Positions 9,566 through 54,066 of a stretch of DNA of 64,000 bases are shown here, in pieces. Every line of letters begins with the position of its first letter. Positions within the stretch are counted from its first letter, which is position 1. The DNA comes from Cystobasidium ongulense (taxonomy: Eukaryota > Basidiomycota > Cystobasidiomycetes > Cystobasidiales > Cystobasidiaceae). The notes below the pieces were generated by a model, which searched no databases, was not told the DNA's origin, and was given only the letters and a program-made list of their open reading frames with translations. Location: assembly GCA_022835595.1 (NCBI GenBank), contig BQUP01000005.1:434001-498000 (forward strand), written 5' to 3'. The translations under genes were made by a program, and so were the position numbers.

Positions 9566-11086
9566 TTAGACCACTTTCTTCTTCTTCTTGACTTGCAGAG
9601 TATTCACTTGTTTCGGAGGTTCGGGTCGTTTCAACGATTCTGAAGACGGTGCTATGGGGTTGTCTACTTGGACCGACCCTGATACGGTACTATCAACGTC
9701 TTGATCTTTTGCGCCAGTCCGTACGCAGGCATGTTTCAGGTCAGAGCACCACTTGGAGTAGCCTTCTGATGTTTTCTCCAGCGATGAGTAGTTGATATTG
9801 TGAATCTGTGACCATAAGCGTATATAGGCCGAATGTGGGAGTGCTCCAGGGGCTGCTGTCACAAATTGCTTCTTTGATGTATTGTCTCGACTCGATGCGA
9901 TATTGGCGGTCTCTTGCTCAGCGTCTACCGGTGATTCGATGGGTGCAGACCGGTTGGATACTACGACGAAAAAGCCAGCCACATGTCCAGATGCGCATTC
10001 TCCTCGATTGCCCATCACTTCCCAAAACCCATCTATATCTCTTTCGCTGTCCTTTGTAAGGTTCTTTCTTTCTTGATCTTTCTGTTCTTGAATCTCCTTA
10101 CTTCGTAGATCGTGCAGGACAGGACTGGCATCTGCCAATTTACGAATTTCGTCTGCGATCTCGTCGTAGTCACCATCTTGGCCAGCGTATGGCATTGGAG
10201 ACGATGCCCATTCGGTCATCTGACGTGCTTTAGGATCATCCTGGAAAGAAGGTATAAGGTCGTTGATGGTGACTTTGCTGCTGTCTGGAACGGGTAGCGG
10301 CGAACCAGTTTTGGAATAAGGATGGCCATACTGCCATTGCAATGCTTTTGCTTCGCTCGATTCAGGCGCTTTTGATAGCACAGCCAGACTCTCGCCGAAA
10401 TTGAAGCCTCCTAACAAGTAGTATAAATTGACTTCAAGAGGTGTGTGGACCGCCTTCTTGCGAGCTTCTGTTGCAGAACTTCCCAATACTTCTCGCCACC
10501 ATCTACACAAGACATTGTCCGGTAAGACACACTTGCCTTTGTTTTCAATGCTCCCAGGGAAGAGATACTGGTCTTGAGCTCGGGCAAAGACGTGCACTCG
10601 TAAGCTGTTCGAGCCATGTGGCGGATTGTGGAAATAATACTGAAGATACGCGTCTACGAGAACACGTGAAGGTGCTGGAGTTGCGAGTAGGCCTGTAGTA
10701 TCGGCTTTTGAGACGTAGAGTAGGGATGTCGAAGTAGACGGGACGGTATATATCGCAGTCTCGAGTCCGAAGACTGGCACGAAGCGTGCCTCTTTACTGT
10801 CGTTGGCAGCGCTATCTGGCCTGTGAATCTCCATCAGTCTTTATACTTCACGATTGGAACCGGAGAGGACCTACGCGGGCGTGTCTGGGGCCTTCTCTGA
10901 CAAGATAATCAACTCATACTCGACATAAACCTTTGCGTTGGCATCGCTGGCCCATGGAAATAAAGCATAGGATCGTCTAGCCTGTGATCGAAGGATGTCG
11001 AGCTTGAAGGCGCGTTTCCCTCGAGCCTTGATTTTCAGACTTGACAACAGGTGTTCTTTGAGGGTCGCGGTTGCAGTAATCGTCAT
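9566..11086 (-). CDS. RTT109: Histone H3-K56 acetyltransferase Rtt109 (KAT11)
   Basis: Two exons (10875-11086 and 9566-10820) joined by a 54-nt intron give about 490 aa. Landmarks of the fungal KAT11 fold are KARGKRAFKLDILRSQARRS near the N-terminus, TTGLLATPAPSRVLVDAYLQ, and FARAQDQYLFPGSIENKGKC followed by VLCRWWREVL. The family RAQxxYLFPxSxxNxGKHVL motif binds acetyl-CoA. Family knowledge: with the chaperones Asf1 or Vps75 it acetylates new H3 on K56 (also K9/K27) for replication-coupled nucleosome assembly and genome stability. The protein ends in a lysine-rich tail, as in other Rtt109 proteins. It is head-to-head with POP1, only 145 bp between start codons. ATG 11086 was preferred over the upstream in-frame ATG 11140 because family similarity begins just after it. 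Confidence 0.88.
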
Positions 11087-50886: not shown

Positions 50887-51944
50887 TTAAAGTTTCTTGA
50901 CCTGATCTTGCTGCCATCCCAGCTGAGCTAAGATGCCACCGACTGGGTCTTGTTGTGCATTCACAGAGCGCTTGCCTGCGACATCGGTTATGAAGCTGGT
51001 TAATCGAAAGTCAGTCTCCGTCTCCCTCAGGCGGGGAGAGGTGGGCGCATGCTTACTCCTCAGGCCCGCAAACAATGATCTGTGATCGTTTACCTGCTTG
51101 AGGCTTGCCAACTAGCTTTTGGATGTCTTTGTAAGTCATTCGACTATATAGAGTATGCATGGAGACACCTTCAGTTGAGGGAAGTAATGGCAGCAGGCTC
51201 TTCTCTGGATTTGAAGCGGAGTATACTAGCTTGATGGACTTGGGGAGACTTTCCCTTTGGCTCAACATCTGGATAAGAGGTGTAAGACCTGTTCCGCCAG
51301 CGATCTAGAAACAGACAGTTACCAGACAATTAGTTTGTAGGCTTTCGATAATATGTGGAAAAACTTACGAAGATCAGATCATCAACCTCCGGAAGCGTCC
51401 ATGTTCGGACAGGACCTCGAACCCATAACTGATCACCCGGCCCTTGTCTATGTACATATGAAGATACTTCTCCATCTTTATATCGCTTGACGAGCAACTC
51501 TATCGATCTTTCATCGTCTCCTTCCGGCTTAAAACATTCTAAGCTCAACGGAGTGTAAGCTCTTTGTATTTGCAGTTCTGGCTGTCGAATGTATATCGCT
51601 TGAAGAGGTGTATGTGGTGGTTCTGGATATATTGATACTTCCGGTAACAATTCTTTAGGAAGTGATAAAGAAACGATAGAGCTATCTGAGGTTATTGGCT
51701 TGATCGCTCGTATTGTCAGTGGCGTAAAGTATGAATAGGATAGAGGTTGTCGAGAGGTTGATGGATCCTGCTGCCATCGCCAGCCAAGGTAACCAAGGAC
51801 TCCGGTACCAGAAGCTAAAGCCAGTGTAAGAGGGGCGCCTCGTTGTCTTGTCGAAGAAGTCTTGCTCGTCAAATAGCTTCTTTGCATATGTCTTCTGCCA
51901 AAAATTTGGCTACTGCCAGAGCAGGCTCGACGGGTCCAGGGCAT
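50887..51944 (-). CDS. Mitochondrial NADH-cytochrome-b5-reductase-like flavoprotein (CYC2-like)
   Basis: Three exons. The N-terminus MPWTRRACSGSSQIFGRRHM is Arg/Ser-rich like a mitochondrial presequence and is followed by the membrane segment LTLALASGTGVLGYLGW. FAD-binding motif RAYTPLS (RxYTxxS), FAD loop GEVSSYVHRQGPGDQLWVRG, NAD(P)-binding GGTGLTPLIQMLSQ and VCGP, and the ending GGILAQLGWQQDQVKKL are visible. Fungal Cyc2, which supports heme attachment to cytochrome c, has this plan, as does Mcr1. ATG 51944 was chosen over 52058 because it opens the targeting sequence. Confidence 0.72.
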
Positions 51945-52165
51945 CGTCAGATAATGTGCGGCCTTCAGGATTATAACGAAAGTTGTAGGTAAAATGAAAG
52001 CATTGTCTGAAGTATATCGATGCTGCTGAGGAGAGAGAGAGAGCTGGGAAGCAGTCAAAGGGTGGCCATCGATTCACTTGGGAGGGCTTGTCCTTTAGTG
52101 TGCTCGCCTCTGGCATACATTATGGTTCGCAAGAGTGAAGCAAAAGTACATCAATAAGTCAATAC

Positions 52166-52325
52166 GACGTGGTGGCCGAGTGAGTAATTCGCTTCAAGCA
52201 CATTACAAGTTCTATCGCTTACAATCATCTCATCATCAGGTGGTTATGGCGACAGTTTAGAACAACCACTTGGTTCTTACCAACTGTTGGGATCTCCCGC
52301 GCGAGTTCGAATCTCGTTCACGTCT
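52166..52325 (+). tRNA. tRNA-Ser(AGA) with two intervening sequences
   Basis: Acceptor strand GACGTGG (52166-52172) pairs with TCACGTC (52318-52324), with one G-U. TG, D-stem GCC, D-loop GA/GTGGTTAT, D-stem GGC, G. Anticodon stem ACAGT pairs with ACTGT; the loop TTAGAA(A) gives anticodon AGA. Variable arm GGGA-TC-TCCC as in class II Ser tRNAs; T-arm GCGAG-TTCGAAT-CTCGT. A roughly 19-nt intron follows position 37 and contains GTTCT, which pairs with AGAAC as in normal nuclear pre-tRNAs. A second, 60-nt insertion interrupts the D-loop (52180-52239). With both removed, the tRNA matches yeast tRNA-Ser(AGA) in every arm. The discriminator base is T. Confidence 0.8.
52180..52239 (+). other. GT-AG intron-like insertion in the tRNA D-loop
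   Basis: A 60-nt insertion starting GTGAGTAATT and ending CATCATCAG, with a C/T-rich 3' end and a CTTAC-type branch candidate about 20 nt before the end. GTG flanks both sides, so the exact junction may slide by up to three bases. Size and ends match the spliceosomal introns of neighbouring protein genes. It splits the A-box region of the internal promoter. Confidence 0.65.
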
Positions 52326-52329
52326 AATC

Positions 52330-52333
52330 TTTT
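52330..52333 (+). terminator. RNA polymerase III terminator
   Basis: A TTTT run five bases after the tRNA discriminator, as expected for a transcribed tRNA gene. Confidence 0.6.
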
Positions 52334-52612
52334 ACACCGTTCGACTCTGCATCTTTACTTTTCTTCGAAGCTTCTACCCGCAGTGAGCGGTGCACACCTT
52401 TTTATCTGTTTGCTCGTCTTATATTTATACTCCTCACGTTGTCATGAAGTGCGTGTCCTCTGCCGATCAACGCGGCCACATCCGCGGAACGTTAACAGGC
52501 GAGGTGCCTGAACTACAACGTCAGGGAGTCGCGCTGCTGAGGGATCTTCGGACATGCGTTTGCTTCTTGACTTTGATTCGCTCAATTCAGCATTCTTTTA
52601 GAAACTGACACT

Positions 52613-54066
52613 ATGCCTAGCATCAGTATGGACTTCAAGTGTGCCGTAGTTACTGGCGGAGGTGGCGGTAAGTCCGAATCATTCTCGCCACCATCACACG
52701 CCAGCTAGCAGTTCTTACTCATTCGACCGTGTACCAGGCATTGGCAAGGCCATTTCACAATGGCTTATCAAGGAAGGCAAGAAAGTAGGCTGCCTCTGAT
52801 GAGAAATGCAGGCTAGCCACCCATGTCCAAGCTGATGGGACGTACCTCGCACTCGTTGGCTTGAATCTATACCCACAGGTCATTATCGTAGGAAGAACAG
52901 AATCAACACTACAAGACAGCGCTAAAGAAATAGGCGCAACTGCCTACTATGTGCTCGATACGGGAGATATACCTGCTATCGAGCCTTTCGTCAAGAAGGT
53001 TATATCTGATCATCCTGAGGTTGACTGCCTCGTAAGGCTTTCAAGTCCGAACGATATGTGGTTAAGCTGTTCTTCACTAAATCGTACTCATTTCTTCTTT
53101 CGCATTTTAAAGATAAACAATGCAGGTGTGCAAAGACCACTTGATGTAAACAATTTCGACTTGAAGAAAGCAGATCAAGAAATTGCCATCAACATTTCTG
53201 GACCTATGCATCTAGCAATGGGCTTCTTAGACCATTTCAAGGTGCCTCACTAATCTAACAGCTTGTCGGAAGGTATGCTCATCAAAACATGTGCCTTCCT
53301 CTTCGCAGAGCAAGCCTAGTGCGACCATAATCAATGTCGGCAGCGTTCTGGGCTATAATCCAGTAAGATCAGAGCTTGCATCGTTCCATAGCGGGCTTGT
53401 AATTGACTAAACATTCTTGATACCTAGTTTTCTATCATCAATCCAGTAATTGCTATCCCACACGCGCTGACGCCTCGTACTTGCTCACGCATGCTTGCTA
53501 TCTGACAGGTATACAACGGTACTAAAGCTTTCGTACATTTCTGGACTATGAACTTGCGCACTCAGCTGAAGAATAGCAACATCCGAGTTGTAGAAGTTGC
53601 GCCACCTACAGTAAGCCCATCATCGCTTCGTTGCACATATGTGTTTGAACTGTTCACTTGCTGATTTCGTCTGCCATCCAGGTTGCTACGGACTTACACA
53701 GGTACGAGAGGCAGTCTATCCGCCAAGTCTCATTTACTGTTTCGCCAAACTTGTTAACTGATACAATCTATCTGCTGTACCATTCATAGAGAAAGAGAAG
53801 ATCCAGATGACAATAAGAAAGAAAAAAATGAGAACGCCCTTTCTGTTGATGAATTTATGGAATACTTCTCCAAAGGAATGCATGAGAATAAGGACACTAT
53901 TGCGGCTGGCATGGCTATTGATATTGTTGGTGAGTATTACAAGATTAATACTGGCTCATGGCACTAGTGACAGAGACTGACCCTGGTATGCATGTTCACA
54001 GACAAATGGTATAACGCTTATGGACAAGCTTACGCTAAAGCTGCAGATGGCTATCAACCGAAATAA
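52613..54066 (+). CDS. Short-chain dehydrogenase/reductase, DltE-like
   Basis: Many small exons, about 270 aa. ATG 52613 opens MPSISMDFKCAVVTGGGGG-IGKAIS, the TGxxxGIG dinucleotide-binding motif. Then VIIVGRTESTLQDSAKEIG, INNAGVQRPLD (NNAG), ATIINVGSVLGYNP (catalytic Ser), VYNGTKAFVHFWTMNLR (YxxxK), VVEVAPPT-VATDLHR, and a C-terminal DKWYNAYGQAYAKAADGYQP. The first strand, the NNAG-x-Q and the VAPPTVxTDL segment fit the DltE-like oxidoreductases, whose substrates are mostly unknown. No signal or membrane segment. Confidence 0.8.

Follow-up and report, generated by a model that had tools for sequence, protein, structure and literature searches.

In teaching, the splicing of tRNAs and that of mRNAs are presented as distinct systems, each with its own substrates and, to our knowledge, the spliceosome has not been described as a tRNA-processing machine. 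U6 (and U2) introns have been described in Erythrobasidium hasegawianum and Rhodosporidium dacryoidum. The available parts of two papers describe D-arm introns, T-arm introns and several introns per gene in the tRNA genes of Cyanidioschyzon and of the Guillardia nucleomorph (PMC4090602, PMC3978253). The former is a review of tRNA introns which, in that part, regards D- and T-arm insertions in eukaryotes mostly as pseudogenes, sets algae and nucleomorphs apart and makes no mention of the spliceosome. For Cystobasidium onofrii, a genome of 20.99 Mb with 48.8% GC, 58 tRNAs were predicted according to the accessible section of its description (PMC10422843). None of the papers listed in our searches of the open-access literature describes, in its title or the opening of its abstract, tRNA genes with spliceosomal introns.

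The gene that we describe lies in a window of 64,000 nt, by which we mean the whole stretch of DNA analyzed. The initial annotation had described 52166..52333 as a tRNA-Ser(AGA) gene with a 60-nt GTGAGT..CAG insert in the D loop, whose arms pair once 52180-52239 is removed, with an anticodon-loop intron retained and a TTTT terminator behind it, and we found the sequence as described in all these respects. Its parts, in window coordinates, are:

52166..52325, plus strand: tRNA-Ser(AGA) gene from nt 1 to the discriminator, with two introns of unlike type (sequence, ARAGORN, stem pairing)
52166..52179, plus strand: 5' exon, nt 1-14, the acceptor 5' strand and the first half of the D arm
52180..52239, plus strand: GT-AG intron of spliceosomal type, 60 nt, between nt 14 and 15 (ARAGORN with the insert deleted, deletion ranking, signal scoring)
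52180..52185, plus strand: 5' splice site GTGAGT of this intron
52218..52222, plus strand: its branch motif CTTAC, with the adenine at 52221 and 18 nt from there to the intron end
52237..52239, plus strand: its 3' splice site CAG
52240..52325, plus strand: 3' exon(s), nt 15 to the discriminator
52259..52261, plus strand: anticodon AGA (ARAGORN, stem pairing)
52263..52281, plus strand: conventional anticodon-loop intron, 19 nt (ARAGORN puts it 1 base further)
52305..52313, plus strand: T loop / B box core GTTCGAATC
52330..52333, plus strand: TTTT, Pol III terminator of the gene

A comparison of a tRNA finder's calls with and without the insert, suggested in the initial annotation, was made with ARAGORN. 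On native DNA it calls no tRNA, neither in the local stretch nor in the entire window. Once 52180-52239 is deleted, it reports a tRNA-Ser(aga) whose anticodon loop holds a 19-nt intron (score 110.8), and the acceptor stem pairs 7/7, the T stem 5/5 and the anticodon stem 5/5. Rfam at E<=10 gave no tRNA in window positions 51400-53200 and three weak unrelated matches near the gene; no intron family matched in the same interval, and a group I or group II self-splicing intron was rejected for this insert. Since 25 deletions share the best ARAGORN score, one of them being the GT..AG version, structure alone leaves the exact ends of the insert unfixed, and its GT-AG reading is secured by the other split genes, for example Lys(TTT). 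The genome (19,773,046 bases, 19 contigs) has one Ser(AGA) locus. A plasmid search gave no match. Regarding protein-coding sequences, an Rtt109-like ORF (window 9566-10840, minus strand) shows 68% identity with a protein from Cystobasidium minutum and 84% with one further protein. The named matches of a peroxidase ORF, at about 55-66%, come from Pucciniomycotina, Ustilaginomycotina and other groups, and none of the 120 matches listed bears the name Cystobasidium.

An oddity of one gene is ruled out by the same arrangement in 17 further tRNA genes. We recognized 43 nuclear tRNA genes in the 19.77-Mb assembly, a lower bound, as the sites examined were the tRNA-looking ones among the matches listed. 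Eighteen of them, covering 17 isoacceptors, hold 24 GT-AG introns of 55-67 nt outside position 37/38, and 25 further genes are uninterrupted by such introns. The insertion sites, assigned by hand in canonical numbering, are listed below; the 13 genes with one site have a single intron.

7/8: Ala(TGC)
10/11: Arg(CCT)
13/14 and 25/26: Trp(CCA), two introns
14/15: Ser(AGA) and Leu(TAG)
D loop: Arg(TCT)
19/20: Leu(TAA)
19/20 and 24/25: Leu(AAG), two introns
22/23: elongator Met(CAT)
23/24, 28/29 and 61/62: Ser(GCT), three introns
24/25: Cys(GCA)
25/26: Phe(GAA)
26/27: Asn(GTT) and Gln(TTG)
28/29 and 46/47: both Ile(AAT) genes, two introns each
28/29: Lys(TTT)
32/33: Thr(TGT)

An anticodon-loop intron is also present in 12 of the 18 split genes by hand assignment. 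The two Ile(AAT) genes are near-copies, which reduces the number of independent introns to 22: their exons are identical at 74/74 positions, intron 1 at 46/63 with GTAAGC and TACTTAC kept, and intron 2 differs at 2 of 65 sites. The introns of Ser(AGA) and Leu(TAG; L091) share, besides the site, a common tail, CTTACAATC..ATCATCAG; perhaps a single insertion predated the split of the two genes, or the likeness arose by convergence.

As candidates we took T loops with a T run behind them (20 + 20 + 13 short stretches and some later ones) and read those in which the T stem paired; the T loop being the search handle, the set of split genes is skewed to intact T loops. The Rfam tRNA model matched at least 24 places at E<=0.001 and at least 32 at E<=10, with 63 of 554 first-look candidates scored, and D-arm matches together with partial model matches led to four further GT..AG-split genes (L048, L030, L025 and L023). 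GTNAGT directly after a T loop (29 rows, control 73) gave one tRNA, the known Ser(GCT); 20 other places with GTNAGT after a T loop had no A box, and three further stretches, partly read, gave no working tRNA. Kept outside the 43 are a mitochondrial-looking tRNA (L019), a third Asp (L102) and a second Gln (C9:333622) that are masked or unfetched, the relics L106, L164 and L029, and ambiguous places (L117 and its inverted twin, L095, L101, L110, C1:2326254 and C3:1826675/1829169). The Met relic L106 (C7:1002114) is broken and lies 4 kb from the Met gene L105 (C7:1006152), with a common, inverted downstream flank; L164 (C8:454870-455062) is a 3' Phe tRNA fragment with trailer; it sits beside the complete gene, in the vicinity of a AAAAAAAATTTCTGTGC motif that occurs repeatedly. 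Among the candidates examined we recognized no gene for Tyr, Gly(GCC), Ile(TAT), Val(AAC), Pro(AGG), Ser(TGA) or Arg(TCG/CCG); these genes may be interrupted beyond our search patterns or lie outside the matches examined. The isotypes of the uninterrupted genes were assigned by hand, and ARAGORN labels four of them differently:

L010: Ala(tgc) by ARAGORN, Ala(AGC) by hand
L018: Cys(aca) by ARAGORN, Arg(ACG) by hand
L021: Ile(gat) by ARAGORN, Ala(CGC) by hand; without T33 on the hand reading, and the least sure
L024: SeC(tca) by ARAGORN, Leu(CAA) by hand

The GT and AG ends were imposed when the introns were chosen and are thus present in 24/24 by selection, and introns placed in loops can shift on structure alone. 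The remaining signals, none of which was used for the choice, are given against a background of 20,000 sampled GT..AG pieces. A CTNAY branch motif occurs in all 24 tRNA introns (background 0.215), and in 16 of them 17-19 nt separate its A from the intron end. Also, 20/24 have A at +4 and G at +5 (background 0.061), the combination of both features with CTNAY is likewise found in 20/24 (background 0.019), and YAG closes 23/24 (background 0.45). In a deletion test on the 13 single-intron genes, every 35-110-nt piece of the 200 nt before the T loop was removed and the products were ranked by ARAGORN, blind to sequence. Of the 8691 deletions scored for Lys(TTT), exactly the GT-AG piece came out first and without a tie, a result independent of our choice. 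A GT-AG piece was best or joint best in 5/13 genes (Lys(TTT) alone; Ser(AGA), Leu(TAG), Cys and Met tied) and close to the top in four others (Arg(CCT) rank 3, Ala 5, Phe 9, Leu(TAA) 19). The assigned intron of Thr ranks 89, and in Asn (506), Gln (11) and Arg(TCT) (78) the best GT-AG piece differs from the assigned one. In some genes structure alone fails to settle the ends; the signals outside the choice do settle them.

Regarding mRNA introns, a first set of 690 ORF-selected candidates was discarded as too impure for a consensus. The comparison set consists of 67 mRNA-type candidates picked by GTNAGY, branch motif, YAG and a length of 48-80 nt, so that only the +3 base, the composition and TTTT can be fairly compared; the tRNA introns fall within the length range of these candidates, itself limited to 48-80 nt. 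The +3 base is T in 9/19 GTNAGY tRNA introns vs 1/67 of the mRNA-type ones (Fisher p 2e-6, the Ile near-copies being counted twice), and the G content is 12.5% vs 22%. Pol III introns may have a 5' site preference of their own. No unusual folding of the introns was found (mean z -0.2).

GT-AG introns were also found in another small RNA gene, likewise of the Pol III class:

C1:2352880-2353420, minus strand: U6 snRNA gene (L161) with two clear and two probable GT-AG introns

It was located by a U6 model match at C1:2353058-2353147 that scores below the model cut-off. Compared with the Rfam consensus, the layout reads TGGAACAATACAG / a 64-nt piece, GTTAGC..CTAAT..CAG / AGAAG / a 60-nt piece, GTTAGT..TAG / ATTAGCATGGCCCCTGC. 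The two clear introns flank AGAAG of the catalytic region, beside the ACAGAGA region, and the second lacks CTNAY. Two further GT-AG pieces, 64 nt upstream and 60 nt downstream, are probable introns. The downstream one holds GTTCAAATCCC, a B-box-like word; a paper title cited in PMC10484740 mentions a B-box match in Schizosaccharomyces U6 introns. The 5S rRNA genes are not split, seven of eight matches being full length at 119 nt and the eighth having masked letters.

A possible explanation for the tRNA introns is that they are ectopic introns of the kind found in red algae and nucleomorphs, cut at a bulge-helix-bulge (BHB) by a relaxed tRNA endonuclease. The D-arm, T-arm and multiple introns of Cyanidioschyzon and Guillardia provide a precedent, endonuclease-type introns occur in this genome as well, and 3 of the 4 BHB core pairs can form at 7/24 junctions. 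However, the full 4-bp core forms at 0/24 junctions and none of the 24 introns lies at 37/38. The universal CTNAY and the frequent +4A/+5G are features for which an endonuclease has no need, and U6 holds GT-AG introns of equal size. We consider this explanation very unlikely, and the spliceosome is our preferred agent for the removal of these introns. In this sense, the proposal of the initial annotation that Pol III transcripts meet another splicing route is strongly favored, with 24 mRNA-type introns in 18 tRNA genes and further ones in U6.

We also considered whether the tRNAs lie within Pol II transcripts, for example in 5' UTRs, and are spliced there, the tRNA being a side product or the product of a second route. 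The initial annotation had raised unusual transcription too, and part of that idea stands, as an uninterrupted A box is missing in several genes: it is split in Arg(CCT), Trp, Ser(AGA), Leu(TAG) and probably Arg(TCT). In addition, the tRNA of the window ends about 290 nt before the ATG at 52613, which opens a gene that is dehydrogenase-like by eye. On the other hand, a T run follows within 40 nt in 18/18 split genes, a count partly ascertained since B box and T run were the search handle and T runs helped to find many of the genes. The B box is kept, its edge being a split site in Ser(GCT). TTTT is a stop for Pol III, and it occurs in 0/24 tRNA introns and 0/4 U6 introns, though these are T-rich. 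Dinucleotide shuffles of the 28 introns contain 6.5 on average, with 0 in none of 1000, and 9/67 mRNA-type candidates contain it, a rate at which 0/28 has a chance of 0.018. The absence of TTTT is consistent with Pol III transcribing through the introns. The Pol II route thus appears highly improbable to us, and Pol III transcription is the reading that we follow below.

An upstream TATA as a replacement of the split A box was rejected, there being no enrichment in the intron genes (9/18 vs 10.3 in shuffles); in the intron-free genes a TATA-like motif is found in 17/25 vs 13.9 in shuffles. GC often comes after the T runs of Pol III genes (TTTTTGCTGG-like), including that of a 5S gene in L166, and GTTCRANNCN{12,42}TTTTGC has 79 matches vs 37 in the reversed control (some sites counted twice). 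The GC after the T run is possibly a terminator or a 3'-processing signal.

With the introns removed, the products look like tRNAs. The acceptor stem pairs 7/7 in 17/18 genes and 6/7 in Ala, whose T-T mismatch is the same, by eye, in the uninterrupted Ala-like L021; the T stem pairs 5/5 in 18/18, and the anticodon stem 5/5 in 14 genes and 4/5 in Met and Trp. For the anticodon stems of Leu(TAG) and Cys, the anticodon intron set by hand was one base off, and ARAGORN's own setting calls both correctly. ARAGORN recognizes a tRNA in 17/18 spliced products and gives the hand isotype in 13, with a different anticodon placement for Arg(CCT), Leu(AAG), Thr(TGT) and Trp. The product of Arg(TCT) is uncalled; its GTCTAT site leaves a 12-nt D loop and is the least certain of the 24 introns. 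A search of the 19.77-Mb assembly with the 17 spliced precursors, placed end to end, gave no uninterrupted gene for any of these isoacceptors; each of its 22 first-look candidates was scored, and masked letters escape such a search. The matches were exon pieces at the split loci, the uninterrupted Lys(CTT), Ser(CGA) and L021, and the 3' Phe fragment. By hand assignment, GT-AG introns interrupt every gene that we found for Asn, Cys, Phe, Trp, Ile and elongator Met, and therefore the split genes cannot all be dead. Under the ARAGORN labels of L018, L021 and L010, an uninterrupted gene would exist for Cys, Ile and Ala(TGC); neither L018 nor L021 matched the interrupted Cys or Ile gene in this search. 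That the interrupted copies are pseudogenes and the cell relies on intact copies elsewhere, in line with the prevailing view of D- and T-arm insertions and with the three relics seen by eye (L106 for Met, L164 for Phe, L029 for Ser), is scarcely credible against conserved stems, Ile exons kept while intron 1 drifts, and intact copies found for none of these isoacceptors, among them Ser(AGA), whose uninterrupted genes the initial annotation had named as one of two marks of a pseudogene.

Taken together, we hold with high confidence, on the basis of the sequence, that the Ser(AGA) gene works, that its insert is a spliceosomal intron of the U2 type, belonging to a set of 24 or more in 18 tRNA genes, and that its Pol III transcript would be handled by the spliceosome before the tRNA endonuclease acts on it; tRNA making in this fungus very probably needs the spliceosome. 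We infer the transcription, the splicing and the order of steps as follows. Transcription by Pol III would cover the entire gene and end at the T run. GTNAGT, CTNAY and YAG would be recognized in the nucleus by the spliceosome, which would excise the GT-AG intron or introns before the cloverleaf can form. The joined RNA would fold as a pre-tRNA and then shed leader and trailer, and the tRNA endonuclease and ligase would then remove the anticodon-loop intron, where present. The tRNA endonuclease requires a folded tRNA body.

We also think it likely, with good confidence, that tRNA processing in this lineage cannot do without the spliceosome. Roughly 40% of the tRNA genes, or more, sole copies of essential tRNAs among them, would carry 1-3 spliceosomal introns, in most cases in addition to one of endonuclease type. 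As U6 is split too, translation and splicing would be mutually dependent by way of Pol III transcripts. Reverse splicing into Pol III RNAs may be the source of the introns, which would then be a record of intron gain outside mRNA. If this is true, one RNA would often require both splicing systems in a fixed order, and spliceosomes would be efficient on Pol III transcripts that lack a cap, are very short and have exons of as little as 5 nt. Intron gain would become testable, tRNA exons being short, constrained and easily compared, and the insertion sites across Cystobasidiomycetes could separate reverse splicing from insertion at the DNA level. Additionally, the tRNA sets of such genomes may look incomplete, because split genes are overlooked or cut short here by ARAGORN and by the Rfam tRNA model.

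Among known systems, the fungal U6 introns (S. pombe, Erythrobasidium and Rhodosporidium) resemble those described here in combining a Pol III transcript, a GT-AG intron and spliceosomal removal. Here, however, the hosts are tRNAs, spread over many unlinked genes that hold as many as three introns, and most of the same RNAs would also undergo a second kind of splicing. Cystobasidium is the nearest named relative of the genome; Erythrobasidium hasegawianum and Cystobasidium minutum are both Cystobasidiomycetes, and the class from which U6 introns have been described is probably that of the split tRNA genes. The introns of fungal U3 snoRNA (PMC5832005) are similar as well: with GT-AG ends, a CTRAY-like branch and YAG, they interrupt a small RNA that is structured. 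U3 comprises a single type of gene in which insertion sites are few, unlike the tRNA set found here. The tRNA introns of Cyanidioschyzon merolae and algal nucleomorphs share the positions outside 37/38, the several introns per gene and the large share of tRNA genes affected, according to the parts available of PMC4090602 and PMC3978253. Those of C. merolae have a BHB and use the tRNA endonuclease, whereas here we found spliceosomal signals and no full BHB core. The canonical eukaryotic intron at 37/38, itself found in two thirds of the split genes (12/18, hand assignment), differs from the GT-AG introns in position, length and signals. In this context, we regard the genome-wide extension of spliceosomal introns to tRNA genes as real and, as far as we found, unreported, with a solid anatomy from which the splicing is deduced.
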